From: Bacteroidales bacterium
GTDB taxonomy: Bacteria > Bacteroidota > Bacteroidia > Bacteroidales > JAAYJT01
Length of the DNA: 64,000 bases
Assembly: GCA_014860575.1 (NCBI GenBank)
Contig: JACZJK010000020.1
Span: 62,001 to 126,000 of the forward strand
Reading direction: 5' to 3'
Shown: positions 36,365 to 53,239 of the stretch, one piece after another
Layout: every line of letters begins with the position of its first letter
How positions within the stretch are numbered: position 1 is the stretch's first letter
Program-made: the position numbers and the translations under genes
The notes under the pieces: generated by a model
Databases searched by the model: none
Told to the model about the DNA's origin: nothing
Seen by the model: only the letters and a program-made list of their open reading frames with translations

Positions 36365-36439
36365 ACCACTAATTCTGTTTTTACAGCAACACTACAACAC
36401 TGTATAACTGCATCACTGTAACACGGCATCACAAAAAAA

Positions 36440-37087
36440 ATGGAAAACACAAAAAGAGCTTACGTTTACAAAGGTTTTGAACGCTTCTGGCACTGGACGC
36501 AATCGTTCCTGATCATGTTTCTGGCCCTCACCGGTTTCGAAATTCACAGCAGCTATACACTGTTTGGTTTTGATTCCGCTGTTGATTTGCACAACAAAGC
36601 TGCCTGGGCATTTATCGTGCTCATCATTTTTGCAATTTTCTGGCACATCACCACCGGCGAATGGAAGCAATACCTTCCAACCACAAAAAATCTGAGAGCA
36701 CAGTTGGAATATTACATAACCGGAATATTCCGTAATGCGCCGCACCCAACCAAAAAAACGGTTCTGAGTAAGTTGAACCCATTGCAAAGACTGGTTTACC
36801 TGGGGCTTAAGATTTTGATAATCCCGGTGATGGTTGTTTCCGGGCTACTATTTATGTTTTATCGCTATCCACAATCGGGTATGATAAAATCTTCCAATAT
36901 AGAAAGCCTTGAAATTATTGCCTTGCTGCATACTTTAGGCGCCTTTCTGCTCATTGCTTTCCTGGTTGTTCATTTGTATCTGATCACCACTGGGCATACG
37001 GTAACTTCGAACCTGAAAGCCATGATTACAGGATGGGAGGAGTTGGAAGATGAGGCTGAGGCTGAGGTAAAGGAGGAGTTGGTGTGA
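36440..37087 (+). CDS. Di-haem cytochrome b (b561/thiosulfate reductase type)
   Basis: This 215-residue membrane protein has about four to five helices. It starts with FERFWHWTQSFLIMFLALTG, followed by HNKAAWAFIVL and FAIFWHITTGEW, and ends with HTLGAFLLIAFLVVHLYL. His residues in the helices are placed as haem b ligands in the cytochrome b561/FdnI-like family. It should pass electrons between the quinone pool and the periplasmic octaheme cytochrome encoded 75 bases upstream. The spacer between them (36385-36430) is made of repeated ACACTG/CATCAC words. Confidence 0.9.
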   Translation: MENTKRAYVYKGFERFWHWTQSFLIMFLALTGFEIHSSYTLFGFDSAVDLHNKAAWAFIVLIIFAIFWHITTGEWKQYLPTTKNLRAQLEYYITGIFRNAPHPTKKTVLSKLNPLQRLVYLGLKILIIPVMVVSGLLFMFYRYPQSGMIKSSNIESLEIIALLHTLGAFLLIAFLVVHLYLITTGHTVTSNLKAMITGWEELEDEAEAEVKEELV

Positions 37088-37142
37088 AAATGATATATTG
37101 CAATCTTTAAGGGAATGATTATTTGCATAGACAATTAACAAT

Positions 37143-38222: not shown

Positions 38223-38230
38223 AGTAAGTT

Positions 38231-38373
38231 ACAAGACCCAAGACCCAAGTTCCAAGACCTAAGACCAAAATTCAAAGAACAAACGAATAAACAATTGACC
38301 ATTCAACCAATTAACCAATTAACCAATATCCGCTCCATTACAGTATCACTGCATCACTGAAACACTGCAACAC
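38231..38373. repeat. Low-complexity spacer of repeated 7-9 base words
   Basis: Three word families follow each other. AAGACCCAAGACCCAAGTTC and variants run from 38231 to 38279. Copies of CAACCAATTAACCAATTAAC lie at 38304-38328. TATCACTGCATCACTGAAAC and ACTGCAACAC close the spacer. Similar words recur at 56191-56358 and 36385-36430. No gene or hairpin is seen; the next ATG follows at 38384. Confidence 0.5.
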
Positions 38374-38383
38374 AAAACAAGAT

Positions 38384-38905
38384 ATGGAAACCAAACCTAA
38401 ACCCTACATGAACCCTTACCTGGCTGGATTTCTGCTGGGATTGGTTCTATTGGCGGCATTCTTTGTAACCGGGCGTGGCCTGGGGGCAAGCGGCGCAGCA
38501 AAAAGCGTGGTTATTCAAACCGTGGCCACTGCTTCACCCGAATATGCTGCCGAGCATCCCTTCTATGCCGAATATTTTCGCGAAGGGCCAGGTCCAATGA
38601 AAAACTGGCTGGTTTACCTCACCCTTGGTGTTCTGGCCGGCGCATTCTTTTCTGGCTCCATGGCCGGAAGATTGGGATTTAAAGTAGAAAAAGGCCCCAA
38701 GATCAGTTCAGGAACAAGATTGATTTTTGCTACTCTTGGTGGATTGTTGTTTGGGCTAGGAGCCCAGTTCGGACGCGGATGTACAAGTGGCGCAGCACTT
38801 ACAGGGATGACAATATTGTCCACCGCAGGGTTCGTAACCATGATGGCCATTTTCGGGTCAGGATATGTGTTTGCATATTTTTTCCGTAAACTTTGGCTTA
38901 AATAG
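38384..38905 (+). CDS. YeeE/YedE-family transporter, N-terminal half protein
   Basis: This 173-residue protein is one half of a YeeE/YedE (TsuA-like) transporter. Membrane helices lie at about 12-30, 75-95, 110-135 and 145-168. The conserved Cys motif is FGRGCTSGAALTG. Full-length family members move thiosulfate or other sulfur compounds across the membrane through a path lined by conserved Cys residues. A periplasmic loop (about 32-70) separates the first two helices. The second half is encoded 14 bases downstream, and the two proteins probably form a heterodimer. Confidence 0.9.
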   Translation: METKPKPYMNPYLAGFLLGLVLLAAFFVTGRGLGASGAAKSVVIQTVATASPEYAAEHPFYAEYFREGPGPMKNWLVYLTLGVLAGAFFSGSMAGRLGFKVEKGPKISSGTRLIFATLGGLLFGLGAQFGRGCTSGAALTGMTILSTAGFVTMMAIFGSGYVFAYFFRKLWLK

Positions 38906-38919
38906 AAAGGAATAATATT

Positions 38920-40146
38920 ATGGGACCACTCATTCCTCAAGGATTCGTCAACCCTGATTTAAACCTCTTCTTCGCTTTCGTAATCGGGCTTGGGTTTGGT
39001 TATGTGCTCGAACAGGCAGGATTTTCATCATCGCGGAAACTGGCCGGTGTGTTTTATGGCTACGACTTTGTTGTGTTACGTGTGTTTTTTACCGCAGCCA
39101 CTACCGCCATGACCGGCCTCTTGCTTTTTAATTACATCGGATGGATTGATTATAGCATGCTTTACATCAACCCAATGTTTGTTTGGTCTGCAATTATTGG
39201 CGGTGTGATCATGGGCCTTGGTTTTATCCTGGGCGGATTTTGTCCGGGAACCAGTCTTACAGCCGCCGTTATCGGGAAAATTGACGCCATGTTCTTTATT
39301 GGCGGTATGTTTATTGGAATTTTTATTTTCGGGCAATTTTACGACACATTCGAGGCAATTTATCTCGGTAATAACCTGGGTGGAATCTTTGTTTACGAAT
39401 CATTGGGCATGAGCCGCGAATGGTTCGCAATGATACTGATCCTGGTGGCTTTGCTCGCTTTTGTGATCACGCAAAAAATTGAAGACAGTGTAAATGATAC
39501 GCCCAGGGTTTTGCGTGAAGCTAGACCCTCGCATATGATGCCGGCAATGCTTATGATTTTAGCCGGTTTTGTGCTGCTTATACTGCCGTCGCAGCCACGA
39601 AGCAACTGGAAAGAAACAGGCGCTGATAAAATCCTTGCAGAAATGGCTTCAAAACAACATTTTACGTGCCCCGATGAGATTGCATTCAGCATTATGCAAG
39701 GTGATAAATATCCCGTTTTGCTTGTGGATGTAAGGGATCCTACAGAATTTGAAAGATTTACGCTTCCGGGCGCTATCAATATCCCGCTCGCCGAAATCCT
39801 GCAACGCAAGTGGGAAACTGTATTTGAAAATCCTGATCTCAAAATTGCTTTGTTTTCTTTTTCTGATACACATGCTGAAGAAGCCTGGTTAATTGCAAGA
39901 CGGGCAGGTTATGAAAACATAAAAGTGCTTGAAGGCGGACTGAACAACTTTCTTTACAGTGTATTCATCGAGGAAGTAGTTCCTGAAAGACAACGGCCTG
40001 ATTGCCTTGAGTTGCATACTGTGCGGTTCAGAGAAAATGCAAAGAATTACTTTCAGTCTGGCCAGGCGATCAAAATGGAAGATAAATCACCGGTTCCGGT
40101 TATTAAAGTTGTGGAAATTGAAATGCCCGCAAGTGGAGGATGTTAA
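38920..40146 (+). CDS. YeeE/YedE half-transporter fused to a Cys-less rhodanese with GGC tail
   Basis: This 408-residue fusion has YedE-like membrane helices (about 10-180, with GFILGGFCPGTSLTA), a further helix near 205-225, a rhodanese domain (about 245-350) and a tail ending PASGGC. The rhodanese keeps the fold motifs VLLVDVRDPTEFERF and PGAINIP, but its active loop reads IALFSFSDTH, with no Cys. The terminal Cys408 is therefore a candidate sulfur carrier. An AAAGGA sequence precedes the ATG. Together with the 38384 product it completes a split YedE channel with an attached soluble domain. Confidence 0.9.
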   Translation: MGPLIPQGFVNPDLNLFFAFVIGLGFGYVLEQAGFSSSRKLAGVFYGYDFVVLRVFFTAATTAMTGLLLFNYIGWIDYSMLYINPMFVWSAIIGGVIMGLGFILGGFCPGTSLTAAVIGKIDAMFFIGGMFIGIFIFGQFYDTFEAIYLGNNLGGIFVYESLGMSREWFAMILILVALLAFVITQKIEDSVNDTPRVLREARPSHMMPAMLMILAGFVLLILPSQPRSNWKETGADKILAEMASKQHFTCPDEIAFSIMQGDKYPVLLVDVRDPTEFERFTLPGAINIPLAEILQRKWETVFENPDLKIALFSFSDTHAEEAWLIARRAGYENIKVLEGGLNNFLYSVFIEEVVPERQRPDCLELHTVRFRENAKNYFQSGQAIKMEDKSPVPVIKVVEIEMPASGGC

Positions 40147-40164
40147 AAATTAAAATCAACGATT

Positions 40165-40776
40165 ATGAACGATTCAGATCATAAAATGCTAAATACCGGC
40201 GCACTGATTTTTGTTGGCGTAACACTATTGGTGATGTTTTTGCAATATATTGCCGGACCGGGCTACAAAGCCAGCAACACCGAAGTGCTTGCAAATGCAG
40301 GCGGTTCTGAAAGATGGATGTTGCCTCACCAGTTTCGCAGCATCATAGAAAACGATCAGTTACAAAATTACCTGCTCGTTGACCTTCGCCCAAGGGAAGA
40401 ATTTAACCAGGGAAGTCTGCCTGGTGCTGTGAATATTCCTTTTGAGAATTTACTTGAAACAAAATCAATGAAATCATTGAAAACCAATCAACCGGTTTTA
40501 CTTTTCTCAGGTAGGGAGGCACAATCGTCTGTTGCCGGCTTATTATTATATGGCGAAGGCTTCAGCAATGTATTTGTTTTGGCCAACAATTATAGCTACA
40601 TAAAGGATAATGTGCTTGGCAAATTTGAACCATCAACTGCGTTTACGCACGAGGAAAAAGCGCGCTACGATTATCACAGGTTTTTCAAAGCAACACCAAA
40701 ACCATCTTCACAGCCTGCTGCCTCACAACCCAAAATTATCGAAACGCAGGTAGTTAGTGTTGAGGGAGGGTGCTGA
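40165..40776 (+). CDS. Membrane-anchored Cys-less rhodanese with GGC tail
   Basis: This 203-residue protein has an N-terminal membrane helix (ALIFVGVTLLVMFLQYIAG), one rhodanese domain (about 55-155) and a Pro/Ser/Gln-rich linker ending VEGGC. The domain has LLVDLRPREEFNQG and PGAVNIPF, but the active loop reads VLLFSGREAQSS, with no Cys. Its only Cys is therefore the last residue of the tail. It ends the plus-strand sulfur operon, 18 bases after the YedE-rhodanese fusion. A role as a tethered sulfur-binding tail rather than an enzyme is inferred. Confidence 0.88.
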   Translation: MNDSDHKMLNTGALIFVGVTLLVMFLQYIAGPGYKASNTEVLANAGGSERWMLPHQFRSIIENDQLQNYLLVDLRPREEFNQGSLPGAVNIPFENLLETKSMKSLKTNQPVLLFSGREAQSSVAGLLLYGEGFSNVFVLANNYSYIKDNVLGKFEPSTAFTHEEKARYDYHRFFKATPKPSSQPAASQPKIIETQVVSVEGGC

Positions 40777-41108: not shown

Positions 41109-42176
41109 TCATTTTTTAACCACTGTTTTTTCTATTTGTAGGATTTTCTCAAAATACATCGCAAATGAGCGATATAGAAAATGCGTCCACTTTCCAAACG
41201 GTACAATGAGTAATGCCCACTGCACGAGGATGATCATATGAAGTATATAAACCCAGAAATTATTTTCAAGCAGGTTGAGGTCAATAAAAAACCTGACAGT
41301 GAATGCTGTAAATCCAAGTAAAAACAGCCAGGTCACAAATAACCAGTCAGAAGGCTGTGAGAACCTGTTAACTTCTTTATTTTTCAATACACGGCTTTTC
41401 ATAAAGATGAAGGTCAATACGAATACTGTTGCACTGACAAGATACCCGAAAACGATTAACAGGATGTTCTCGGCATGAAACCAATCAAGTACTACTGTTG
41501 TGAACAGCAGTGTGAGATAACCGATAACAAGGATGAGATGTTCGAGCCAGCGTGTTTTGCTGTCATCGCATCCGAGGGTTCTCTTTTGTGTGAACATGTG
41601 CACGATCAATTCACCAAAACTCTTGAAATAAGTTGAAAGGGAGACTTTTCGTCCTGGTTTGATAATCAGAAAATACCACATCCGGATCAGATTGGGAACC
41701 AGAATTACCAGAAAAACAGAGAGAATGGCAAAGAATTCAAACTGATGGCCGATAGGCATGATGCGTTCTGCATCAAAATTCAGATTGTATGCAAACCCGA
41801 TTACTGCAAGTGCAGTGATAACAAATGCCAGGATGGTAAGGGGCAGGTATTTGTAAAGCAATCCAGACAAACCTGTCCAATCATATTTCGCAGTCAGCCA
41901 TCTTCTGAGTGCCATCATAAGTTCGCCTGGATTGGCTTCTCTTGGACAATGTGTGGTACACTCACCGCAGTAATAGCATAACCAGGGATCCAGGGAACTT
42001 GTAATCTTGTCTTCGAGGCCTACTACACTTGATCTTACCATCATTCGGGGAAATGATTCCTCGGGTGTTGATAATGAACAAATAGCTGTACAATTACCGC
42101 AGTTGTAACAGGCACTGAAGTCAACTCCTCCGAATTTTTTTAGTTCCGCTAAAAAGTTGGGATTAACTTTTGTCAT
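41109..42176 (-). CDS. qmoC: QmoC-like subunit (HdrC-HdrE fusion)
   Basis: This 355-residue protein has two [4Fe-4S] motifs of HdrC type near the N-terminus (CYNCGNCTAIC and CYYCGECTTHCP). About six membrane helices follow from residue 110, with His residues placed as haem b ligands as in HdrE, DsrM and NarI. This is the layout of QmoC, which links the Qmo flavoprotein subunits to the menaquinone pool. In sulfate reducers Qmo serves APS reductase; no aprBA is in this window. Its start overlaps the end of the small winged-helix gene by 14 bases, so the two are translationally linked. Confidence 0.88.
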   Translation of the reverse strand: MTKVNPNFLAELKKFGGVDFSACYNCGNCTAICSLSTPEESFPRMMVRSSVVGLEDKITSSLDPWLCYYCGECTTHCPREANPGELMMALRRWLTAKYDWTGLSGLLYKYLPLTILAFVITALAVIGFAYNLNFDAERIMPIGHQFEFFAILSVFLVILVPNLIRMWYFLIIKPGRKVSLSTYFKSFGELIVHMFTQKRTLGCDDSKTRWLEHLILVIGYLTLLFTTVVLDWFHAENILLIVFGYLVSATVFVLTFIFMKSRVLKNKEVNRFSQPSDWLFVTWLFLLGFTAFTVRFFIDLNLLENNFWVYILHMIILVQWALLIVPFGKWTHFLYRSFAMYFEKILQIEKTVVKK

Positions 42177-42465
42177 TATGTGTTTGCTTTTTTGTCAGTT
42201 CGTAATAAAAATATTCGTCATCATCGTCAACCTGCCCGACCGTAACTTCGCCATATTTTCGCATTGTCATCAGATAGTAAGTTAAATCACCAACCTGAAG
42301 GCCTGTGGCAGCAGCAAGTTCGGGTATTGTTTTAGGCTCGTCTTCGAGAGCGGTACGAATCGTTTTCCTCATATCTGCAAAAGCCTTACGACGTTGTTTT
42401 GCTAACTCAGGCACTTGCCTTTGTTGTTTGATTACATCAATCGTTCTTGTTTTTTCAGCACTCAT
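42163..42465 (-). CDS. Small winged-helix protein within the qmo operon
   Basis: This 100-residue protein has a basic N-terminal helix (IDVIKQQRQVPELAKQRRKA) and a winged-helix-like core (TIPELAAATGLQVGDLTYYL, MRKYGEVTVGQV). An acidic loop DDDDEYFYYELTKK follows. No Cys or metal motif is seen. The core resembles DNA-binding winged helices, but the role is unknown. It sits between qmoB and qmoC and overlaps qmoC by 14 bases, so it may be a complex-associated regulator or assembly factor rather than a free regulator. Confidence 0.75.
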   Translation of the reverse strand: MSAEKTRTIDVIKQQRQVPELAKQRRKAFADMRKTIRTALEDEPKTIPELAAATGLQVGDLTYYLMTMRKYGEVTVGQVDDDDEYFYYELTKKQTHNDKS

Positions 42466-42497
42466 GATTTTAATGTTTTAGAGCTTTAAGTAATTGA

Positions 42498-44423
42498 TTA
42501 TTCGATTAAAGCATCAATCATGCTTTCAATTTCACGGTTGGTATAGCCTATCAGGTCAATTGCATCAACAGGGCATACGGGTAAACAAATACCACAACCT
42601 TTGCAGCTTGAAACATTGATTTCGGCAACCTCTTTGCCATTCAAACTGACTTTTTGAATTGCATCAAACGGGCACACTTCTGCGCATTTACCGCACCAAA
42701 CGCAATCGTTTTTATGAACCATTGCGAGGGTAGGTTCAAGCTCAATTTCCCCTTTACTGATCAGTGAATTAGCCTTTGAAGCTGCAGCAAGTGATGATTT
42801 TAGAGATTCTGTTATATTTTTTGGCGATTGGCTTGCCCCAGCAATAAGAACACCATCAATCACGGTTTCCACAGGGCGTAGTTTAGGATGGATTTCATTA
42901 AAGAATTTATCCCGGCCAATAGGTATTTTAAGAATATCTGCGATTGAATTGTTCTTACGGGGAACCATACCTGTTACGAGCACAACGAGGTCAACAGGTA
43001 TCTCAAGCTCTTCCTTTGCGGTAAGCAGATCAATCACATTGAGGATTGTTACATTGCCGTTTTTGCTGATAACCGGTTCTTTTTTTGGGTCGAATTCTAT
43101 GTAAACATCGCCGTTTAAAGATGATTGAGTATAAAGTATTTCCTGCTTGCCGTAAGTTCGGATGCCACGGTTCAGATGATAGGACTTGATCTTAAACTTC
43201 TCGAAAACTTTCAGAGAACTATGAATGGCTGAGGTACAACAATAACGGGAGCAATACTTATTTTCTCCCTTTATTTGCATACTACCCACGCAATATATAA
43301 AGCCTATGGTCTTTATCTCCTGATTATTATAAATGAGTTTTTTATCATTCAGTTCCATCAATCGCTTGAATTGCTGAAGGGTGATAACTGCATCAATGGT
43401 TTTGTAGCTAAATTCACCTTCGGCGGGTTCGTAAGGATCAAAACCTGTGCTCACCAAAACAGAGCCAACCGTAATCTGTTGAATTTCTTCTTTCTGGTTT
43501 AGATCTATGTTATCGCACAATTCCTGGCACTTGCCGCATCGGGTACAACTTACCATATCAATAGCAGGCAGTTGCGGAAATTCGGACTTATAGTTCTTAT
43601 AAATGGCTTTTCTCTTGTTCAAGCCAAAATTAAACTCATCGTCAACCTCAACCGGGCATGCTTCAATAGCTTTATCAAAAGCATTAGGTGTACAAGGTTT
43701 GGTAACATATCGTGGTGTAATTCTTATCTGAAGGTTGTAATTTCCAACGCTGCCTGACTTTGAGATGATCTCAGCACCTGTGAACAGCCTTATTTTTTGG
43801 TGGTTTACTACGTCTTTAAAAAGATTTTTTACTATTTCTTCGCCTGTTTGTTCAGACGTAAAAAGTTCACCCCACTGTGAGGTTCTTCCTCCTACAAAAT
43901 GTTCACGTTCAATCAGGTAAACTTCTGTCCCCATATCAGAAAGTTCAATGGCAGCTCTTAATCCTGAAACTCCGGCTCCTACAACTGCTACCTTATTTAA
44001 TGCTTTTATTTTGAGAGGTGTTAGCTCGCTTGATTCTGCAACGCGCGCAATTCCTGCTTTTGTAAGATGGATTGCTTTTTCAGTAGCAGCGGCTGGTGTG
44101 TCGCTATGAGCCCACGATCCCTGCTCACGGATATTTACCTGAACGTAATTGTATTGGTTCAACCCACCTCGCATTGCAACATTTCTGAAGGTTTGCAAAT
44201 GCAATTTGGGTGAGCATGAAGCTACAACAATAGCGTCGAGCTGGTTGGTTCTGATGTCGTTTTCAATTTCTTTCTGAGCCGAGTCGGAGCATGCAAACAT
44301 GGTGGTGCGAACCAATGCAACACCCGGATGATCTTCAACGCCTTTTTTGACTTTTTCAACATCAATATAGTCAGAAATGTTAGCTCCGCAATGACAGATA
44401 TAAACACCTACTTTTTGTTTCAT
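42498..44423 (-). CDS. qmoB: QmoB/HdrA-like flavoprotein without the MvhD domain
   Basis: This 641-residue HdrA-family protein has an N-terminal HdrA domain (VGVYICHCGANISDYIDV), FAD-binding VVGAGVSGLRAAIEL (about 148-165), an inserted ferredoxin motif CTRCGKCQELCD, and two C-terminal [4Fe-4S] motifs (CVWCGKCAEVCP and CKGCGICLPVCP). Canonical QmoB is about 750 residues and ends in an MvhD-like domain; that domain is absent here and appears as a separate gene at 45756-46157. A strong GAGGAGG Shine-Dalgarno sequence precedes the ATG, inside the end of qmoA, and the two genes overlap by 4 bases. Confidence 0.86.
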   Translation of the reverse strand: MKQKVGVYICHCGANISDYIDVEKVKKGVEDHPGVALVRTTMFACSDSAQKEIENDIRTNQLDAIVVASCSPKLHLQTFRNVAMRGGLNQYNYVQVNIREQGSWAHSDTPAAATEKAIHLTKAGIARVAESSELTPLKIKALNKVAVVGAGVSGLRAAIELSDMGTEVYLIEREHFVGGRTSQWGELFTSEQTGEEIVKNLFKDVVNHQKIRLFTGAEIISKSGSVGNYNLQIRITPRYVTKPCTPNAFDKAIEACPVEVDDEFNFGLNKRKAIYKNYKSEFPQLPAIDMVSCTRCGKCQELCDNIDLNQKEEIQQITVGSVLVSTGFDPYEPAEGEFSYKTIDAVITLQQFKRLMELNDKKLIYNNQEIKTIGFIYCVGSMQIKGENKYCSRYCCTSAIHSSLKVFEKFKIKSYHLNRGIRTYGKQEILYTQSSLNGDVYIEFDPKKEPVISKNGNVTILNVIDLLTAKEELEIPVDLVVLVTGMVPRKNNSIADILKIPIGRDKFFNEIHPKLRPVETVIDGVLIAGASQSPKNITESLKSSLAAASKANSLISKGEIELEPTLAMVHKNDCVWCGKCAEVCPFDAIQKVSLNGKEVAEINVSSCKGCGICLPVCPVDAIDLIGYTNREIESMIDALIE

Positions 44424-45724
44424 GGTAACCTCCTCATATAGCTTGCTGTTTCGGATGATGCAGCTCCTGCTGAAAGAATAGAATCGGGGATATCCATTGG
44501 ACCGGAAACTGCCCCTGCAACAAAGACCCCAGGTATGCTGGTTCTGCTTGGATTTCGCAGCTCATCAATTTGCTTGATATAGTGATAAGGATCGGTATCA
44601 AGATTCAGATCAGGAAACATCCCAGTGATTCCCTGATTTGCCATGATACCCGTTGACAGAACCACCATATCGTGTTCGCTCTCTTTCACTTTACCTTTGT
44701 AAACATCTTCGTAGCGGATAATCAGGTTGCCATTTTCCTTCTCAGAGATTTTAGCAATTTTCCCTTTAACAAAATCCACACCCATACCACGAGCCTGCAT
44801 ATAAAATTCATTGAATCCTTTGCCGAAAGCCCGGATATGCAGATAGTAGATTGTAACATCGGCCATTGGCAAGGCACCCATCAGCAATTGCGCCTGCTTG
44901 ATAGAATACATACAGCATATCTGAGAGCATATTGGGTTCCCCACTGTAGCATCGCGCGAACCGGCACACAGCACGTAAGCAATATTTGAAGGCATTTTAC
45001 CATCTCCCGGCCTAAGTACGGCATTGAATGGTCGGGTGGGTACAAGCTGCCTTTCCATCTGCATGGCAGTTACAACATTTTTATACTTGTTGAACCCGTA
45101 ATTAGGTAATTTTTGCGCATCAAAAAGATCGTAACCGGTGGCAAGAATCACAGATTTTACCTCTACAGGAATAACTTCAGGCTTTTGAGTAAAATCAATG
45201 GCTTCGGCGAGGCATGCTTTTTCGCATGCTCCACACAATATACAATTGTCTATGTCAATGGTTGCAATTCGCGGGTTCGCAATGCTGAATGGAATATAAG
45301 CTGCCTTTCGACCAACAAGATCATATTGATACTGATCCTCAACAATTACGGGGCAAACTTTCTCGCAGGCTTCACAACCGGTACATTCCTCCTCTATTAC
45401 ATATCGGGGTTTTCTGATGATATTTACTGAAAAGCGATTATTGGAAACTTTCTTGATGTCTTTGGCTTCGCTGTAAGTGTAGATTTTAATGTTGGAATGT
45501 CGTGCAGTCTCTGAAACTTTTGGAGTTGTGATACAGGCTGAGCAGTCGAGGGTTGGGAAAACTTTACTTAGGTGTATCATTTTGCCACCCAGCGAAAGAT
45601 CTTTTTCGACAAGCACCACATAAAAGCCCATGTTGGCTAAATTAAGTGCTGCTTCTTCGCCTGCAATACCCCCTCCGATAACAAGTGCATCATACTGACT
45701 TGCAGGAACGGTATTTTCTGGCAT
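44420..45724 (-). CDS. qmoA: QmoA/HdrA-like FAD iron-sulfur protein
   Basis: This 434-residue protein has an FAD-binding GGGIAGEEAALNLA, the HdrA/QmoA motif GGKMIHLSKVFPTLDCSACI, and two ferredoxin motifs (CTGCEACEKVCP and CILCGACEKACL). A C-terminal VFVAGAVSGPMDIPDSI closes the FAD domain. It fits QmoA, the smaller flavoprotein of quinone-interacting membrane-bound oxidoreductases, and is cytoplasmic. The ATG at 45724 is preferred to a TTG at 45739. It overlaps qmoB by 4 bases (ATGA). Electron bifurcation or reverse electron flow with menaquinone is possible for the complex but cannot be read from the sequence. Confidence 0.86.
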   Translation of the reverse strand: MPENTVPASQYDALVIGGGIAGEEAALNLANMGFYVVLVEKDLSLGGKMIHLSKVFPTLDCSACITTPKVSETARHSNIKIYTYSEAKDIKKVSNNRFSVNIIRKPRYVIEEECTGCEACEKVCPVIVEDQYQYDLVGRKAAYIPFSIANPRIATIDIDNCILCGACEKACLAEAIDFTQKPEVIPVEVKSVILATGYDLFDAQKLPNYGFNKYKNVVTAMQMERQLVPTRPFNAVLRPGDGKMPSNIAYVLCAGSRDATVGNPICSQICCMYSIKQAQLLMGALPMADVTIYYLHIRAFGKGFNEFYMQARGMGVDFVKGKIAKISEKENGNLIIRYEDVYKGKVKESEHDMVVLSTGIMANQGITGMFPDLNLDTDPYHYIKQIDELRNPSRTSIPGVFVAGAVSGPMDIPDSILSAGAASSETASYMRRLP

Positions 45725-45755
45725 GTTATTAATTTTCAATGATTAGGTAAATAAA

Positions 45756-46157
45756 TCAGTTTTTTGACAACTCTTCCACAAAATTGTTCATGTGTTTTGC
45801 AAATGGTTCGGCACATACAGAACATATAGCAGCCATTTTCAACCTTGCTGTACCTATTCCTTTCTCTTTCATGAGCTTATGCGTTTGTGCTATTATATCT
45901 GAGGTGCGCTCAGTACAGGTTTCACTAAAAGGACAATCACTGCCGTCGGCAGCAATAAACACTCCGTCATATCCTTTTTCGAAAGCATGTATAATCCATT
46001 TAGGTTTTACTGCACTTGAACAAGGCAGCGTTATTACATACACCGTGGGAGGGTAATGTAATTTCAGAAGCCCCGCCAGGTCAATGGCGGGGTCTGAAAT
46101 TTTTTCGGTGGAAAATACCAGAACTTTTGGTGGAGTTTTGGTTGTTGACTCTGGCAT
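45756..46157 (-). CDS. Stand-alone MvhD-like protein
   Basis: This 133-residue protein matches the MvhD (methyl-viologen hydrogenase delta) fold: VYVITLPCSSAVKPKWIIHA, FEKGYDGVFIA, DCPFSETCTERT and MAAICSVCAEPF. Paired Cys residues could hold a [2Fe-2S] cluster as in MvhD. In canonical QmoB this domain is fused at the C-terminus; here it stands alone just before qmoA and would complete the shortened QmoB. The ATG at 46157 starts 2 bases after the tusA stop; an alternative ATG at 46166 would overlap it. Confidence 0.82.
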   Translation of the reverse strand: MPESTTKTPPKVLVFSTEKISDPAIDLAGLLKLHYPPTVYVITLPCSSAVKPKWIIHAFEKGYDGVFIAADGSDCPFSETCTERTSDIIAQTHKLMKEKGIGTARLKMAAICSVCAEPFAKHMNNFVEELSKN

Positions 46158-46159
46158 CT

Positions 46160-46411
46160 TTAGCATTTTTTCAGGTAAATCCTAAAATAGCCATCTTCTT
46201 CCATATCACCGAGGTACTCATAGCCTTTCTTATCGGCCCATTTGGGGATATCTCTCTTTGTTCCGGCATCAGCCGAAAGTATTTCCATGATATCACCATC
46301 TTCAATTTCACCAATTGCTTTTTTTGCGGCAAGTAGTGGTCCCGGGCATGCTGTACCTCTTGCATCTACTGATTTTGCAATATTGAGGTTTTTTAATTCT
46401 TCGTAAGTCAT
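46160..46411 (-). CDS. tusA: TusA-family sulfur carrier (second copy)
   Basis: This 83-residue TusA-like protein has the persulfide-carrying motif ARGTACPGPLLAAKKAI, in which the CPGP Cys receives sulfane sulfur. SADAGTKRDIPKWADKKGYE is the usual second half. It ends IYLKKC, with an extra terminal Cys that the first tusA product of the operon lacks. The start at 46411 is fixed by AGGAGA seven to eight bases upstream; a longer frame to 46486 has no support. It lies between dsrE and the MvhD-like gene and should carry sulfur in the cytoplasm to the Qmo-type complex or its partners. Confidence 0.92.
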   Translation of the reverse strand: MTYEELKNLNIAKSVDARGTACPGPLLAAKKAIGEIEDGDIMEILSADAGTKRDIPKWADKKGYEYLGDMEEDGYFRIYLKKC

Positions 46412-46445
46412 TGTTAAATCTCCTTTTAGTTTTGATTTATTATTT

Positions 46446-46859
46446 TTAAATAAGAAAATGAATATCAGCACTTTTCGCTGCATCAATATATTCTCCGATG
46501 CCTATGATTCCATCCACGATATCAATGAAATCTTCATCTTTTGAACCACCCCAGATTTTTCCGGCCAGGCTGCATACATATACTTTCACATTGGTCATTT
46601 CTTTAGCCATGTGAAAATATTCGAGCCATTCAGGGCTGTTTACACTCTTTAGTGCTTTTACAAAATCAGCTTTATTTGATGGATTTTCGCTTAGGTAGGT
46701 TTCGCGTCCTTCATTGCCTTTAACAAACCATTGTGCAGCCTGAAGGTGTACAAAAACTTCCACATCCATATCATCAGCAGCAGCCCCGCTGAGTACCACT
46801 CCGGCATAGATGAGTCTGTCAAGGCCTCCGGAGAATAATCCAATACACATTTTTGACAT
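46446..46859 (-). CDS. dsrE: DsrE-family sulfurtransferase
   Basis: This 137-residue protein has the DsrE/F fold: MCIGLFSGGLDRLIYAGVVL, DVEVFVHLQAA, MAKEMTNVKVYVCSLAGKI. The Cys in KVYVCSLAG is at the active position used for persulfide transfer in DsrE-type proteins. No signal peptide is seen, so it is cytoplasmic. A second acidic helical segment SKDEDFIDIVDGIIGIGEY precedes the C-terminus. Its neighbours are a GGCGD-tailed rhodanese and tusA; a DsrE-TusA pair passing sulfane sulfur is a known pattern. Confidence 0.9.
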   Translation of the reverse strand: MSKMCIGLFSGGLDRLIYAGVVLSGAAADDMDVEVFVHLQAAQWFVKGNEGRETYLSENPSNKADFVKALKSVNSPEWLEYFHMAKEMTNVKVYVCSLAGKIWGGSKDEDFIDIVDGIIGIGEYIDAAKSADIHFLI

Positions 46860-46894: not shown

Positions 46895-47404
46895 TTAATC
46901 CCCACATCCGCCTGATGAAGCTTTTTTGGCAGGGGCATCAGTCTGAGCAGCGCCACCGCCTTCTTCAATCTTTTCCGGGAAAGCATTTTTCCATGCGTCC
47001 AGACCGCCTTCAAGCAAACATACTCGACCAAACTTGAGCAATTCAAGATTTCGGACAGCTAGGGTTGAGCGGTTGTGTAGATCGCTGTATAAATAGATTT
47101 TTTCCCGGCGGTTGGTAAGCTGGCTTGAGAATTCAAGTATTCCGCGTGGAATGTTAATGGCTCCGGGAATGTGACCCGTAACATATTCTTCAGGTTCGCG
47201 AACATCAATTATCTTAAGCCCTGGAGTTGATGTAGCGATCAATTCCTCCAACTGTTCGGCTGAAACGTAGCTTACATCTACTTTCTTTTCGGCAACCATT
47301 TTATCAATTGAGCCATACACAGTGTTATCAATATGCTGACAGCTAACCAGAAGCAGTGGAAGAATCAAAATCGCATGTAACCAATTTAAACGTTTCATAA
47401 TCAT
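46895..47404 (-). CDS. Cys-less rhodanese lipoprotein with GGCGD tail
   Basis: This 169-residue protein has a lipoprotein signal (AILILPLLLVSC, Cys22) and one rhodanese domain (about 45-140) with IIDVREPEEYVTGHIPGAIN. Its active loop reads IYLYSDLHNRST: the catalytic Cys is replaced by Ser107, while the Arg-Ser of the loop is kept. A Gly/Ala/Lys-rich linker (EEGGGAAQTDAPAKKAS) leads to the tail SGGCGD. The tail Cys167 may replace the lost active Cys. It lies between dsrE and a two-domain sulfurtransferase gene. Start at 47404 or 47398. Confidence 0.9.
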   Translation of the reverse strand: MIMKRLNWLHAILILPLLLVSCQHIDNTVYGSIDKMVAEKKVDVSYVSAEQLEELIATSTPGLKIIDVREPEEYVTGHIPGAINIPRGILEFSSQLTNRREKIYLYSDLHNRSTLAVRNLELLKFGRVCLLEGGLDAWKNAFPEKIEEGGGAAQTDAPAKKASSGGCGD

Positions 47405-47420
47405 CGTTTTATATTTATGA

Positions 47421-48239
47421 TTAATTGGTTTTGTATTCGTTGTATCCCCCTTCGTAAATCTTCATATTTTTGTAACCCAGTCCTTTCATTGCCAGATACA
47501 CAGTTCCGGTACGGGCACTTGAAGCGCAATACAGAATTATTTCTTTGTTCTTGTCAATTTTGTGATCAGCAAGTACCTTTTCAATTGCTTCTTTCGAATT
47601 CAGGGTTGATGATTCTTCGTTGAAAAACAGTTTATTTTCCATGCTGATAGCTCCCGGAATATGTCCTTCGCCGAACTCTTTTTCGCTCGAAACATCCACG
47701 ATCATTGTCCCTGCATTATTCAATTTGCCTTTCACATAGTTGTAGTCGCAAAAAATCCCGGTTCTCAGTTTTGGGGTCACAGTAATTGCTGATTTACTGG
47801 AAGGTGTTTTTGTTACCGGACCACGTGCAGCTCGCCAGCCTGTCATATGGCCATCGAGAACTTTAACATTTGTGTAACCCAGGTAATCGAGAATCCAGTA
47901 CATGTAAGTAGCATATACGTATTTACCATTGTCATAAATAATTATGGTTTTTGACGGGTCAACACCGTTCTGGCCAAATATCTTAGCCATTTCTGCAGCG
48001 CTTTTTAAGAGTCCTTCAATCGGTCCTTCAACATAGAGTGATTTCATTTCCAGATTAATTGCATTCTGGAGGTGTACCTTTGCATAATCTTCAGCCTTAC
48101 GGGTTGAAATGATGATCACATTATTGTCGTCAACCAGTTTAACGGCATCTTTTGCTGAAATAATATCAAATTGGGCTGTGGCACCGGAAGCCATCAGCAT
48201 CAGCAACAATAGTCCTATATATTTGCCTATTCTTTTCAT
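47421..48239 (-). CDS. Exported two-domain sulfurtransferase (SseA/TST-like)
   Basis: This 272-residue protein has a signal peptide (IGLLLLMLMASGATAQ) and two rhodanese domains. The first (about 25-130) has an inactive loop, IIIYDNGKYVY. The second (about 150-270) has the active Cys in EIILYCASSARTG. This inactive-active pair is the layout of thiosulfate or mercaptopyruvate sulfurtransferases. It ends YNEYKTN, without a GGC tail. It should act in the periplasm, passing sulfane sulfur from substrate to acceptor. Its neighbours are a tailed rhodanese and the porin. Confidence 0.9.
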   Translation of the reverse strand: MKRIGKYIGLLLLMLMASGATAQFDIISAKDAVKLVDDNNVIIISTRKAEDYAKVHLQNAINLEMKSLYVEGPIEGLLKSAAEMAKIFGQNGVDPSKTIIIYDNGKYVYATYMYWILDYLGYTNVKVLDGHMTGWRAARGPVTKTPSSKSAITVTPKLRTGIFCDYNYVKGKLNNAGTMIVDVSSEKEFGEGHIPGAISMENKLFFNEESSTLNSKEAIEKVLADHKIDKNKEIILYCASSARTGTVYLAMKGLGYKNMKIYEGGYNEYKTN

Positions 48240-48255
48240 TGTCTATAAATTTTAG

Positions 48256-49275
48256 TTAAAATTTGGCCTGAATTTGAACAACAAAACGGTCGTTCTTTAA
48301 TTCAGTTGGATCTTCGGTACGATAAATATAGTTGGCCTGCAGTCTTGTCCAATCATTCAGGTAATAATTAAAGCCAAAGGTCAGATTGGTCTCTTTATAT
48401 TCCTGGGCATTGCCGGAGTCGAAAAAGTCGAATTTGAAAACCGGCTCAACGTCCCATTTTGTCTTATAGGCCAGTGCAGCCCAACCGCCACTTCTTTGAT
48501 CACCCAGGTTGAGCAGTTCTCCACCGCAGCCACCGCCCAGATCGCGGTTATAATCGCCTTCATCCATCATATACTCGCCCATAAGTGTGAAATTTTTATA
48601 ATTAGCCTTTATCTCTCCACCATAAGTGGTTCGCGAATCTTCATTGTTATTATATGAAGGGTATCCGTAACGAAAATTCCCACCAATCTGAACGAATTCT
48701 ACCGGACGGAACAACACCCTTGCAACGATGTCTTTCTTTTTGTTCTTATCAAAAGTTTTCAAACCGCTGCCATTCATAATACCCAATTGATACTGGATTT
48801 TGGTTTTCTGATCACCACCCATAATTACCATCCCCATATCACGGAATGGTGCAACCATCTGCAATGAAGCAGTTGAACGGTAAATTGTGATCAAACCATT
48901 ACATGGAGTATTGATTTCCAATCCCAAAGGAGTTTTGAATGAACCTACCGAAACACGCGCCCATTTAATGCGGTCATAGGTTATAAAAGCATCGAGCAAA
49001 TATGGATTTGCTGAGATGAAGGGGCTGTATTCAACCACAAAATAGTAGGAAAAATCGTATGGGATCAAACCCTGAACCCCAATACGAGCTCTTTCGAAAG
49101 TGAAACTGTTTTTCGTTTCATCTTCGAACTTCATTTCATATTGTCCCTGCAGGAAACCAAATACCTGGACTCCCTCATCTGAAGGGGCATCGCCACAACC
49201 TTGGGCAGCAAGTTTTCCAGCTGCCAGTATGAGCAGCATGGAAAGTGTTAAAGCAATTTTTTTCATAGTCTTCAA
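48256..49275 (-). CDS. Outer-membrane porin (OprO/P-like) carrying GCGD and GGGCGG motifs
   Basis: This 339-residue outer-membrane protein has a signal peptide (MLLILAAGKLAAQ) and a 16-18-strand type barrel of the phosphate-selective porin O/P family (FERARIGVQGLIPYDFSYYF, VGSFKTPLGLE, ending RFVVQIQAKF). Two Cys-containing motifs are unusual for a porin: GCGD right after the signal peptide (Cys27) and GGGCGG (Cys250). Both echo the GGCGD/GGCGE tails of the rhodanese proteins encoded beside it. It probably lets a sulfur oxyanion enter, or docks the tailed proteins; the latter is speculative. Confidence 0.88.
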   Translation of the reverse strand: MKTMKKIALTLSMLLILAAGKLAAQGCGDAPSDEGVQVFGFLQGQYEMKFEDETKNSFTFERARIGVQGLIPYDFSYYFVVEYSPFISANPYLLDAFITYDRIKWARVSVGSFKTPLGLEINTPCNGLITIYRSTASLQMVAPFRDMGMVIMGGDQKTKIQYQLGIMNGSGLKTFDKNKKKDIVARVLFRPVEFVQIGGNFRYGYPSYNNNEDSRTTYGGEIKANYKNFTLMGEYMMDEGDYNRDLGGGCGGELLNLGDQRSGGWAALAYKTKWDVEPVFKFDFFDSGNAQEYKETNLTFGFNYYLNDWTRLQANYIYRTEDPTELKNDRFVVQIQAKF

Positions 49276-49284: not shown

Positions 49285-50262
49285 TTAGTTACCGGTAACG
49301 TAAGGCAATTCTTTCGGATTGTCAGTTACACCCCATTGATTAGCCGTCCATACACTGCTTGAATGGTAGAGTTTATTCATGCCGAATACCATGCTGTAAG
49401 CATCGTATCCAATCACTCTTAAATACGATGTGATAGCAGCCGAAGTCTGACCAGTGTAGCAATAAGTTACAACTTTTTTAGAGGAATCGTTGTTGGTAAC
49501 CTTTTCATTGTCTCCACCACCAACGAGCATTGGATTAATTCTGTAAGCTCCGTCAATATGGCCAAATCCCGTGAAATGAGCTTCCGAAAAATAATTATTA
49601 ATGAAGAAACTATTGGGATTAGTCAGTACATCATCGGGAGTTACCGTTTTGAATCCCTCTGAAACTACCTGCGCTATTCTTGCCTGGAGAATTTCAGCTG
49701 GATCGGTACTGGTGGAGGTAAATGTAGGGCTTTCGAAAGTAAGATTGGTTGGGGCCGAATCTGTGGTCCAGTTTGCATTACCCACCGCAATGTCTCCGGT
49801 TTTACCATTCCAACCCTTAGCATTATTTGCAAAAACAGGATTCCATCCGCTCATTCCCCATTTAAGGGCTTTGGCAGTGTCATAACCAGATAACCTGAGT
49901 AATGTTCCGGCATAGGTAGCTGTTTGACCAGTATAGCAAACTACTACAATTGGTTTGGTTGCGTTAGCTGCTTCAATTAGGATGTCTGTAAAAGGAACAT
50001 TCACTGCACCAGTAATATGCCCAAGAGCAAAGTCTTCGGTCGAGCGGATATCAATCAAATGGTAATCGCTCATGTTTCCATCGGCAGGAGCGCCAATTAC
50101 AAACCCATCCAGCATTTTGTTAATGTCAAGTTGTTGGCTTACCAGGTAGTCTGTCAAAGCTTTTTGTGCATTGAATGGATCATCATCATCTTTCTTACAT
50201 CCTGTGGATAGCAAAGCTGTGGCTAGCATCAAGGTCAAAAAATAAATCGCAAGTTTTTTCAT
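49285..50262 (-). CDS. Double-rhodanese lipoprotein, both active Cys present
   Basis: This 325-residue protein has a lipoprotein signal (TLMLATALLSTGC) and an Asp-rich stretch KKDDDD after the lipid Cys. Two rhodanese domains follow, at about 60-155 and 205-315. The active loops read VVVCYTGQTATYAG and VTYCYTGQTSAAIT. It resembles the 37143 product in layout (GMSGW after the first domain), but it lacks the GGC tail and ends PYVTGN. The two may be duplicates split between the operons. It should act at the periplasmic side, next to the porin. Confidence 0.9.
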   Translation of the reverse strand: MKKLAIYFLTLMLATALLSTGCKKDDDDPFNAQKALTDYLVSQQLDINKMLDGFVIGAPADGNMSDYHLIDIRSTEDFALGHITGAVNVPFTDILIEAANATKPIVVVCYTGQTATYAGTLLRLSGYDTAKALKWGMSGWNPVFANNAKGWNGKTGDIAVGNANWTTDSAPTNLTFESPTFTSTSTDPAEILQARIAQVVSEGFKTVTPDDVLTNPNSFFINNYFSEAHFTGFGHIDGAYRINPMLVGGGDNEKVTNNDSSKKVVTYCYTGQTSAAITSYLRVIGYDAYSMVFGMNKLYHSSSVWTANQWGVTDNPKELPYVTGN

Positions 50263-50316: not shown

Positions 50317-50802
50317 CTATTCGCCGCAGCCACCACCCCCGGCTGTTTTAGGTGTGTTATTGTCAATATTGGGATCCCAATTCAGGATTCCACCATGAAG
50401 GTTTTTCACATTGGTAAAACCAAGCTGTTGTAATGCAAAAGCAGACAATGCACCACGATAGCCCAGTTTACAGTACAAAATGATCTCAGCATCATTCTCT
50501 GGAGTATAGAGGAATTCTTCTTCCCAGAATTCATCATCACGAATTCTTATTTCAAGAGCTCCTCTTGGAATGTTCAATGCGCCCGGAATTGCACCATTCT
50601 TGTAATCGTTTGATTGACGCACATCAATCAGTAAAAAGTCCTCCCCGTTTTCAATCCTGGTTCTCAGTTCATCTGCTGAAATTTCAGCGATGTTGTTTTG
50701 TATGGAAGCTGCCAATTCTTCTCCATTTTCATAAATAGCACTGCACGAGGTAAAAGTAATAGCCACAAACAGCATCAAATAGTTTATAAAAGTTCTTTTC
50801 AT
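50317..50802 (-). CDS. Rhodanese lipoprotein with GGCGE tail
   Basis: This 161-residue protein has a lipoprotein signal (MLFVAITFTSC) and one rhodanese domain (about 35-145) with FLLIDVRQSNDYKNGAIPGA. The active Cys is in IILYCKLGYRGALS. The tail TAGGGGCGE places Cys159 two residues from the end. It is the close relative of the 169-residue protein at 46895-47404, which has Ser at the active position, so the operon encodes one active and one inactive tailed version. It follows yedE by 13 bases. Confidence 0.9.
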   Translation of the reverse strand: MKRTFINYLMLFVAITFTSCSAIYENGEELAASIQNNIAEISADELRTRIENGEDFLLIDVRQSNDYKNGAIPGALNIPRGALEIRIRDDEFWEEEFLYTPENDAEIILYCKLGYRGALSAFALQQLGFTNVKNLHGGILNWDPNIDNNTPKTAGGGGCGE

Positions 50803-50815: not shown

Positions 50816-52030
50816 TTAATAAGCGGTAAACTTTCCTGTTTTCTCGTTCCATTTTACGAACCAATACCAAAGCAGTATAATTCCGATGACAAGTGCTACA
50901 GCTCCGGGATAACCAATATAATCGGGCAGGAATGACCTGTATCGAAGTTCCTGTGGAAAAAGGTCGTTTACTGTAGGTACTATATAGCGGTTTGATAGCG
51001 GAGAAAGCAGAACAAATCCTAATGCTGCAAGCCATAATTTCACCTGGCCTTCGCCGACTCTCCATAAAGTACCAACTGCACAGCCCCCGGCAACAGTCAT
51101 TCCCAGGCCAAAAATGAAACCTCCCAATAATGCCCGGCCCCAGAAATGTGGAAACACCCACGCCATTTCGCGGGCACGCAATTCTGCACCGCTGATTCCG
51201 ATGCCAAAATATTTGATGGCGGTAAAACCAATCAAGGTGATGATCAATCCGGCCATAACTCCAACCGATCCATCTGATTCCCCTGTCATGAAAGGATCTC
51301 TGAATGCTTTTACGATACAAAAGCGTGAGCGTTGGCAGATCAACCCCATAAATAAACCAATAATTACGAACCAGGTCATTATCGGATTAAATGATGAGTA
51401 CCACCATGCTAGTAGTAATACTGCAGCAAATAATATCCAGCCTATGTAAACCTGCCAGGAACCTTTACCGGGTTTTACGGCAAATAAAGTATAGCTTTTT
51501 CCGGAACTGAACTGCGGGTAATGTTCCATTTCCCACATGAGGTACTTTAGTGCAAGAATAACTCCAACAAAGAGACCGATGGTAAAGATCAGGGCTCCAC
51601 CAGATAGCGCAGGTACACCGCTGAAGAAAGATCCTATAGTACAACCCAGGCCAATGGTGGCTCCTAATGCCATAAGCCCACCGCCAATGAATCCTTTTAC
51701 CATTTCTCCTTTTGGTGGAATTCTAAAAGCAAACTCTTTTGAGAATAAGGCTCCGAGAAATGAACCTAATACAAGCATGATACAAAGCATTCCGAATAAA
51801 CTGGTCCCGGTTGAAGCTGCTTCTGAATAAGCAGAAAATCCCAATACCTTATAAATATTTTCTCCCCAATTATTGATTCCACCACTTGCGCCCCAGGGAC
51901 TGTGAACTGAAAATAGTATAATGTTAAGTAGTCCAAGGGTAATTCCGCCAACCCATACTGGCCAATGTTTTGAAAAAAATGTGCCGAAAAGCTGGCCAAA
52001 AATGCCCGTTTCTTTTGACGTATCAGACAT
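50816..52030 (-). CDS. yedE: Full-length YeeE/YedE-family sulfur transporter
   Basis: This 404-residue protein has about ten membrane helices in two repeats. The conserved Cys motifs are ATIGLGCTIGSFFSGVPALS, LICQRSRFCIVKAFRDPFMT and MTVAGGCAVGTLWRVGEGQ. These match YedE, whose relatives carry thiosulfate or selenium/sulfur compounds. It lies 8 bases after tusA, the usual YedE-TusA pairing, and has a strong TAGGAGG Shine-Dalgarno sequence, unusual for this phylum. It differs from the split YedE of the plus operon in being one chain without a rhodanese fusion. Confidence 0.94.
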   Translation of the reverse strand: MSDTSKETGIFGQLFGTFFSKHWPVWVGGITLGLLNIILFSVHSPWGASGGINNWGENIYKVLGFSAYSEAASTGTSLFGMLCIMLVLGSFLGALFSKEFAFRIPPKGEMVKGFIGGGLMALGATIGLGCTIGSFFSGVPALSGGALIFTIGLFVGVILALKYLMWEMEHYPQFSSGKSYTLFAVKPGKGSWQVYIGWILFAAVLLLAWWYSSFNPIMTWFVIIGLFMGLICQRSRFCIVKAFRDPFMTGESDGSVGVMAGLIITLIGFTAIKYFGIGISGAELRAREMAWVFPHFWGRALLGGFIFGLGMTVAGGCAVGTLWRVGEGQVKLWLAALGFVLLSPLSNRYIVPTVNDLFPQELRYRSFLPDYIGYPGAVALVIGIILLWYWFVKWNEKTGKFTAY

Positions 52031-52038: not shown

Positions 52039-52275
52039 CTAATTCTTTTTAATTAAATATCTGAATACTCCTCCATCCAGCATTTCTTCTTGCAGCATGA
52101 TGTTGCCTGATTTCTCACACCATTTTGGCAAATCGGATTTGGTTCCTGGGTCAGTTCCTAACATTTCAAGGACCTGACCTGACTTTAATTCCTTCATGGT
52201 CTTTGCAAGTTTCATCATAGGCATAGGGCAGCTAAGTCCCTTGCAGTCCAGTGTTAGATCAAATTTTGTTTCCAT
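52039..52275 (-). CDS. tusA: TusA-family sulfur carrier (first gene of the minus operon)
   Basis: This 78-residue protein has the TusA motif LDCKGLSCPMPMMKLAKTM, with the sulfur-carrying Cys of CPMP, and MLGTDPGTKSDLPKWCEKSG. The ATG at 52275 is preferred; an upstream frame to 52335 would run through the palindrome at 52291-52312. It ends YLIKKN. It should accept sulfane sulfur at the inner face of YedE, encoded 8 bases downstream, and pass it on in the cytoplasm. Confidence 0.93.
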   Translation of the reverse strand: METKFDLTLDCKGLSCPMPMMKLAKTMKELKSGQVLEMLGTDPGTKSDLPKWCEKSGNIMLQEEMLDGGVFRYLIKKN

Positions 52276-52290
52276 ATTTTCAATAAGTTT

Positions 52291-52312
52291 TATTGTTAAT
52301 GAATTAACAATA
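52291..52312. promoter_or_regulatory. Perfect palindrome in the tusA leader
   Basis: Arms TATTGTTAAT (52291-52300) and ATTAACAATA (52303-52312) pair perfectly around GA, 15 bases upstream of the tusA ATG. It may be an operator or a leader hairpin that affects translation of the sulfur operon. Confidence 0.6.
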
Positions 52313-52389
52313 CAAAAGTCATTAGTTAATTCCATATAACAATATCAGAATAATTGTTTTAACACCATAGAAATGAATGATCTAACACA

Positions 52390-52543: not shown

Positions 52544-53239
52544 ATGACTGAGCCCCTTTTTATGAATAGTTGTACTATTGCCAGTCGTAGTTGTTTATGT
52601 TTTGAAAAGCTTACATCAGATGAAATAGAATTGATTGAAAAGAACAAAGTAGAGCTTTCCTACAAAAAAAATGAAATTATTTGTAAGCAGGGTTCTCTAT
52701 CCCCTCATGTTATTTTCCTGAAGCAAGGACTCGTAAAAGCGTATATTGAAGGTTGCAATGACATTCTTGTCCTTAAGATCATTTCCGGGGGAAAATTTGT
52801 GGCTCTTTCTTCAGTGATGGACGGAAACAACATATTTATCTACTCAGCCCAAACCTATGTTGATAGTACGGTTCAATTAATTGATATCAACATTTTTAAA
52901 AGAATTATGCGTACAAATGCTGAGTTTGCAAACGAGGTATTTAACGTTCAGAGCGCTCATGCTGCTCAAATTTACGGGCGTTTTTATTGTTTGACTCAAA
53001 AACAGTCTTATGGTAGATTGGCTGATATTTTGCTATGCTTATCGGATAATGTTTTTGGGAAAAATGCTTTTGAACTCAATCTAAGTCGGAGGGAAATAGC
53101 CGAACTTTCGGGTATGACTGAAGAAAGTGCTGTGCGAATCCTCAAAAAGTTTAAAGAGAATAAGCTGATAGCAACAGTTGGTAAAACAATAGAAATTCTT
53201 GACTACGAAAGACTTCAACAAATCAGCATCAAAGGCTGA
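52544..53239 (+). CDS. Crp/Fnr-family transcription regulator with N-terminal Cys cluster
   Basis: This 231-residue regulator has a cyclic-nucleotide-binding-type beta roll (about 20-130; EIICKQGSLSPHVIFLKQGL), a dimer helix and a helix-turn-helix (about 170-215; LSRREIAELSGMTEESAVRI, LKKF). The effector pocket lacks the GE and RS/RT residues needed for cAMP. Cys10, Cys17 and Cys19 near the N-terminus (NSCTIASRSCLCF) could hold an iron-sulfur cluster or sense persulfides, though the spacing differs from E. coli FNR. It is divergent from the 14-gene minus sulfur operon and probably controls it. Confidence 0.9.
   Translation: MTEPLFMNSCTIASRSCLCFEKLTSDEIELIEKNKVELSYKKNEIICKQGSLSPHVIFLKQGLVKAYIEGCNDILVLKIISGGKFVALSSVMDGNNIFIYSAQTYVDSTVQLIDINIFKRIMRTNAEFANEVFNVQSAHAAQIYGRFYCLTQKQSYGRLADILLCLSDNVFGKNAFELNLSRREIAELSGMTEESAVRILKKFKENKLIATVGKTIEILDYERLQQISIKG

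Follow-up and report, generated by a model that had tools for sequence, protein, structure and literature searches.

In the textbook view, porins are passive sieves, and reactive cysteines are, to our knowledge, almost absent from outer-membrane barrels; we know of no description of a porin with conserved reactive cysteines and a selenocysteine (Sec) form. The known porins of the Porin_O_P fold that are of relevance here are OprP and OprO, 16-strand barrels with an anion-type pore and an eyelet formed by loop L3, and Ser125 of OprP is one of the residues that make up the central phosphate sites (PMC5877670). In Geobacter, the extHIJKLMNOPQS cluster encodes a porin, ExtI, adjoining the rhodanese ExtH, and extI has been implicated in the reduction of selenite and tellurite (PMC5877670). 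A different kind of reactive cysteine is found in SoxY, which carries sulfur on the Cys of a C-terminal GGCGG swinging arm (PMC6067878). In Acidithiobacillus, a thiol-dependent activation of elemental sulfur at the outer membrane has been proposed, and the responsible proteins are unconfirmed; the activation and import of insoluble or extracellular sulfane sulfur is thus an acknowledged gap (PMC10045233).

The window, that is, the whole stretch of 64,000 nucleotides of Bacteroidales DNA analyzed here, contains a porin gene that shares features with each of these systems. Its minus-strand ORF, counted from a TTG, codes for 339 amino acids and includes a signal peptide. The ATG at codon 4 (49266) is the likelier start, because the orthologs start with MKK. 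The protein matches Porin_O_P (PF07396) in Pfam with 46.6 bits, above the gathering score of 20.9, and ExtI (NF040900) in NCBIfam with 45 bits, below the curated cut-off of 150. Its fold makes it a Porin_O_P protein, although it scores too low for ExtI and its eyelet differs from that which defines OprP. It contains three cysteines in total, Cys27 (LAAQGCGD), Cys125 (NTPCNGL), and Cys250 (DLGGGCGG), which are Cys3, Cys101, and Cys226 of the mature protein. A preliminary description had placed Cys27 in a GCGD and Cys250 in a GGGCGG motif, and both are found at these positions in the ORF; Cys125 in the pore eyelet and the Sec variants of the porin described below go beyond that account. The features of the gene are as follows.

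48256..49275, minus strand: three-cysteine OprP/ExtI-like porin (Pfam Porin_O_P, AF2 model, VIA-align to OprO)
49204..49275, minus strand: signal peptide of the signal peptidase I type, ending in AA before QGC (Q before GC in orthologs)
49195..49197, minus strand: codon of Cys27 (mature Cys3), periplasmic N-terminus by prediction (invariant, 64/64 orthologs)
48844..48933, minus strand: loop L3 (mature 91-120), which constricts the pore (DSSP of the model)
48901..48903, minus strand: codon of Cys125 (mature Cys101), gap-free alignment to OprP Ser125 (HMM alignment to 2o4v; 64/64)
48499..48555, minus strand: loop L6 (mature 217-235), clade-specific, Gly-rich, pLDDT 43 (model and remote-homolog alignment)
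48526..48528, minus strand: codon TGC of Cys250 (mature Cys226) in GGGCGG, TGA in two orthologs (ortholog codons)

Cys27 is unlikely to be lipidated: the residue before GC is Q in essentially all orthologs, whereas the adjacent lipoproteins have S/T-G/S-C.

The AlphaFold2 model of the porin, built from 33 sequences, has a pLDDT of 85 and 16 strands. Among solved structures, it is most similar to OprO and OprP (2o4v/4rjw/4rjx), with Z values of 28.5-28.9 (28.9 to OprO with VIA-align) and an rmsd of 2.6 Å over about 290 residues, well above the Z values of other porins in the structure comparison. The loop lengths alternate between short and long, with 30 residues for L3 and 19 residues for L6, and because of this alternation we assign Cys101 to L3, Cys3 to an N-terminus on the periplasmic side, and Cys226 to L6, a flexible loop that would be extracellular and that is the part of the model with the lowest confidence. 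The profile alignment with OprP is gap-free from E120 to R133 and matches Cys101 to Ser125, R109 to R133, and R38 to R60; Arg38, Arg40, and Arg109 are near-invariant across the orthologs. Since Cys101 aligns with the phosphate-site serine, one thiol is placed in the anion-binding eyelet. The porin therefore resembles OprP/OprO in its barrel, its L3 eyelet, the arginines at the R60 and R133 positions, and its anion-type pore. However, it has Cys in place of Ser125, an extra Gly-rich L6 with Cys or Sec, and an N-terminal QGC, and it adjoins rhodanese genes and not phosphate genes. The OprP eyelet set S124/S125/K121/R133 is not matched, as R133 is kept, S125 is Cys, and the position of K121 is not Lys.

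We compared 64 distinct porin orthologs from related genomes and genome contigs. Cys27, Cys125, and Cys250 are all kept in 64/64, the two TGA codons being counted as Sec; the N-terminal Cys of L053 and L054 was trimmed in this alignment and was seen in a separate comparison. Cys3, Cys101, and Cys226 are also invariant in the alignment of 33 mature sequences. In contrast, none of 39 remote Porin_O_P relatives outside such loci has a Cys at any of the three columns, most of them lack the L6 insertion, and those examined adjoin other genes than the rhodanese-linked porins do. On plasmids only distant porins were found, with 23-26% identity. The likeness between the porin cysteines and the rhodanese tails, on which the preliminary description was based, holds for one of the two sites. 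The loop motif is found in every ortholog from this gene neighborhood, contrary to the absence that would have refuted the preliminary account, and it has the form (G)GGC followed by G, S, or D in 63/64 orthologs. At the N-terminus, the residues after QGC are variable and GD occurs there in only 4/64 orthologs, so that this part of the match is coincidental; GCGD is therefore ruled out as a shared motif, and only QGC is conserved.

An invariant cysteine triad could also bind a metal or a haem-like group at the outer membrane, with the tails of the rhodaneses as further ligands, and several of the loci do encode multihaem cytochromes. We consider this extremely unlikely: there is no invariant His in the conserved porin columns, the predicted topology would put the cysteines on opposite sides of the barrel, and, a few active sites apart, metals are seldom bound by Sec.

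Two orthologs, from genomes G607 (L090/L116) and G492 (L100/L117), each carry one in-frame TGA, at the codon of the L6 cysteine.

L116:8462-9631, minus strand: porin with in-frame TGA at the L6 cysteine
L117:9137-10213, plus strand: porin with in-frame TGA at the L6 cysteine

The TGA contexts are DGG-U-DG and GGG-U-GG, and the frames stay open for 94 and 99 codons until the next stop. When L100 was compared with four close relatives, the part downstream of the TGA had a dN of 0.13-0.18 and a dS of >1.3 or saturated, and the upstream part was alike. SelB above the cut-off together with a tRNA-SeC(UCA) was found in exactly 5 of the 15 porin genomes tested, namely the window's own genome, both TGA genomes, G658, and G590. 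In the window's genome, where the porin codon is TGC, contig C18 (L118, L138) carries the tRNA-SeC(UCA) and two SelB-like proteins above the cut-off. Reassignment of TGA to Trp is ruled out, as TGA terminates other genes in both loci. Because the TGA falls on the L6 cysteine codon and is otherwise a stop, the downstream part is under purifying selection, and the genomes encode SelB and tRNA-Sec, we suggest that these proteins are candidate selenoprotein porins. A paper on a porin selenoprotein was not found in the literature under the terms tried. L116 has a convincing SECIS-like hairpin of 6 bp with the loop AGGU, 20 nt past the TGA (z −2.3), whereas that of L117 is weak and lacks the loop G (z −0.8), and Rfam detected no SECIS in the two TGA loci. 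These hairpins are taken as supporting evidence only, because by the same rule hairpins of ≤−3 kcal/mol occur at 16% and of ≤−6 at 4% of the background codon positions in these genes. In the tree, the two TGA porins stand apart among Cys porins; L100 is 0.30 substitutions per site from neighboring Cys porins and 1.18 from L090.

It is very unlikely that the TGA codons arose by mistakes in sequencing or assembly, or by mutations that turn the genes into pseudogenes, and that the cysteine conservation is an ordinary one. Although they are the only two cases among the orthologs found and the SECIS support is weak in one of them, they strike the same codon of about 340 in two unrelated assemblies, and this codon is one of only three for conserved cysteines. 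Moreover, purifying selection downstream equals that upstream, and both genomes decode Sec.

The thiol/selenol channel has as its main rival a structural disulfide that joins L3 to L6. A Cys101-Cys226 bond (or one with Cys3) would pin L6 or the N-terminus, and the porin would be a passive anion pore for thiosulfate-like ions. Extracytoplasmic Cys pairs are usually disulfides, and the alternation of loop lengths would put both L6 and L3 on the extracellular side. However, one of three invariant cysteines would stay unpaired, and the link to the rhodaneses would be left unexplained. Most Cys-to-Sec conversions fall on redox-active Cys, and an independent Cys-to-Sec replacement with purifying selection downstream is typical of such residues (PMC1794560). 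We therefore regard a purely structural disulfide as unlikely. The two independent replacements at the loop residue favor direct sulfur or redox chemistry at the outer membrane, which supports the preliminary description in part, and the L6 residue is very probably redox-active or nucleophilic. The porin would then probably perform sulfur chemistry itself and not act as a passive hole.

The gene neighborhood links the porin to rhodaneses. At the conserved core, the porin comes after a double-rhodanese lipoprotein and is itself followed, in nearly all loci, by a second double rhodanese. The porin was found in 37 of the 295 genomes of the order. A count from gene coordinates puts the first double rhodanese immediately upstream of the porin, with both genes on one contig, in 34 of these 37; in the other three genomes, two porins are at or near the contig start and one has the rhodanese on another contig. 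The genes around the porin in the window are as follows.

49285..50262, minus strand: double rhodanese lipoprotein with both active-site Cys and CKKDDDD after the lipobox
47421..48239, minus strand: ExtH-like (48 bits) periplasmic double rhodanese without the active Cys in its first domain
46895..47404, minus strand: single-domain rhodanese lipoprotein that has lost its active-site Cys (YSDLHNRS) and has the tail SGGCGD
50317..50802, minus strand: single-domain rhodanese lipoprotein, active-site Cys present, tail GGGGCGE
50816..52030, minus strand: YedE/TsuA-like sulfur transporter (PF04143, 170 bits)
52039..52335, minus strand: TusA-like sulfur carrier, with which the minus-strand operon begins (CPMP motif; homologs in matching loci)
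46160..46486, minus strand: TusA sulfur carrier (PF01206)
46446..46859, minus strand: DsrE-family protein (PF02635)
41109..46166, minus strand: QmoABC/HdrA-like electron-transfer module (QmoC-like, two HdrA-like, MvhD/FlpD)
34736..40776, plus strand: octaheme tetrathionate-reductase-family cytochrome, cytochrome b, and three rhodanese-containing proteins
52544..53239, plus strand: divergent Crp-family regulator, kept beside the module in many loci

The octaheme cytochrome matches TIGR04315 with 544.7 bits (cut-off 375), and the QmoC-like protein scores 151 bits, under its cut-off of 300. The YedE/TsuA, TusA, DsrE, QmoABC/HdrA-like, octaheme cytochrome, and cytochrome b genes are additions of the larger locus versions, the window included. 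Several porin loci are without TusA, DsrE, and Qmo genes within the flanks examined, and the flavobacterial and saprospiral loci encode multihaem cytochromes, of which that of L047 is ExtM-like, along with reductases of the PhsA/NrfD type. Flavobacterium alvei (L043) is one of the flavobacteria with the module. The same porin-rhodanese-DsrE-TusA-Hdr order was also seen in L034, on a contig labelled Krumholzibacteriota, by horizontal transfer or misbinning.

This arrangement resembles the Geobacter ext cluster in that the porin adjoins an ExtH-like rhodanese; rhodanese neighbors, a trait of that cluster, are always present in the porin loci, and multihaem cytochromes occur in L047 and others. 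The porin could be a Bacteroidota ExtI, in a module that reduces or imports selenite or tellurite, with Se bound by Cys or Sec. The NCBIfam scores point in this direction, with 45 bits for ExtI, 48 for ExtH, and 193 for ExtM, but they are far under the curated cut-offs of 150, 200, and 800. Unlike Geobacter ExtI, which has a single Cys (PMC5877670), the present porins have three, with Sec in the porin itself in two cases, and they are flanked by double rhodaneses on both sides. Their further neighbors are sulfur genes, namely TsuA, TusA and DsrE, the octaheme tetrathionate reductase family, and PhsA/NrfD. A role in Se or Te oxyanion handling thus appears quite improbable. On the basis of the same neighborhood genes, sulfane sulfur is the probable substrate, and we hold this with fair confidence.

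The single-domain rhodaneses of the porin loci end in C-terminal Cys tails of the type GGC, GGCG[DEG], or DEGC, and in the window the genes at 46895-47404 and 50317-50802 end in SSGGCGD and GGGGCGE, as had been reported for them. Over all loci, such tails occur in 20/23 ORFs of the tail classes and in 0/656 other ORFs, the remainder including transporter halves without a rhodanese domain. Several tail rhodaneses have lost the catalytic loop Cys and are left with few or no cysteines besides that of the tail. The Gly-Gly-Cys-Gly motif of the SoxY arm is common to these tails and to the porin L6, and we liken the tails to that arm by function and not by homology. Unlike SoxY, the arms are carried by rhodaneses and, internally, by a barrel loop, and Pfam gives Rhodanese only. 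A search of the window's own genome for SoxY (PF13501) returned no match, and the control was also silent. Sec versions of the tails (pattern GGUG(D/E/G)-stop) were not found in the five Sec-decoding genomes.

Three rhodanese-containing proteins of the plus-strand cluster in the window (37143-38222, 38920-40146, and 40165-40776) also have GGC ends. They are a double rhodanese (QGGC tail), a TsuA-like transporter that is split and fused to a rhodanese (SGGC), and a rhodanese (EGGC). The products of 38920-40146 and 40165-40776 lack the active-site Cys, as if the reactive Cys had shifted to the tail. Short C-terminal Cys tails were also seen on multihaem c-type cytochromes of about 600 amino acids (L042:4173-5969, L038, and the ExtM-like protein of L047) and, read from ORF ends alone, on ORFs of about 600 amino acids in L031, L033, L043, L044, and L046; the tails of these large ORFs in the porin loci are ECVIP, SECVLPVW, and RCAVPVW. 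In L117:7242-9125, and also in G493, G590, and G607, the upstream double rhodanese is duplicated to a four-domain protein of about 630 amino acids.

The two double rhodaneses appear to differ in location. In Bacteroidetes, surface lipoproteins carry an export signal (LES) with the optimum C-X-K-(D/E)2 (PMC5080379). The CKKDDDD of the upstream double rhodanese (325 amino acids) has the acidic residues after the lipobox Cys that characterize the LES, with a mean of 2.75 acidic residues among six positions in 32 orthologs; the means at the same positions of the tail rhodaneses are 0.7 and 1.2. This suggests that the upstream protein is a surface-exposed lipoprotein. The downstream double rhodanese has a leader of the signal-peptidase-I type.

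Based on the above, we favor, with moderate confidence, the interpretation that the porin is a thiol/selenol channel of a Bacteroidota envelope sulfur-acquisition module, capturing or cleaving external sulfane sulfur and passing it to rhodaneses. The module would comprise, in order, the surface lipoprotein double rhodanese, the porin, and the periplasmic double rhodanese, so that one rhodanese outside and one inside flank a pore with thiols at its surface loop, eyelet, and periplasmic end. The porin would be an anion-selective OprP-fold channel with its pore arginines kept and a thiol at the position of the phosphate-binding serine. The L6 thiol or selenol would most likely attack external sulfane sulfur (polysulfide, S8, tetrathionate, or thiosulfate) or, alternatively, receive it from the surface rhodanese. 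The sulfur may then cross the porin as an anion or as a Cys-bound persulfide via Cys125 and Cys27, be accepted by periplasmic rhodaneses with SoxY-like Cys tails, and pass onward to TsuA/YedE, TusA, DsrE, and respiratory complexes. The exact substrate and a stepwise relay through the pore are speculative; a complete persulfide relay, from the surface rhodanese to the loop Cys/Sec, the eyelet Cys, the N-terminal Cys, and the periplasmic rhodanese, is an attractive but tentative proposal. Sulfur hand-over between porin and rhodaneses, as put forward in the preliminary description, would fit the data, whereas a shared modification of their cysteines, offered there as well, is unsupported, as no modifying enzyme was identified.

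An invariant eyelet thiol and a surface-loop thiol or selenol in a porin family suggest catalysis at the outer membrane. The chemistry would be like that proposed for Acidithiobacillus, in that reactive outer-membrane thiols open extracellular sulfur, and here there is a defined and testable Bacteroidota candidate for the activation of extracellular sulfane sulfur. The porins would also be a new candidate selenoprotein family, accompanied by rhodaneses in which the reactive Cys has apparently shifted to SoxY-like C-terminal arms. If the relay is true, then, as far as we know, neither a selenoprotein among porins nor a covalent relay across one would have a precedent.

Elsewhere in the window, two neighboring sensor-like proteins, encoded at 20689-22692 and 22854-26690, have a near-identical C-terminal histidine kinase stretch in common.
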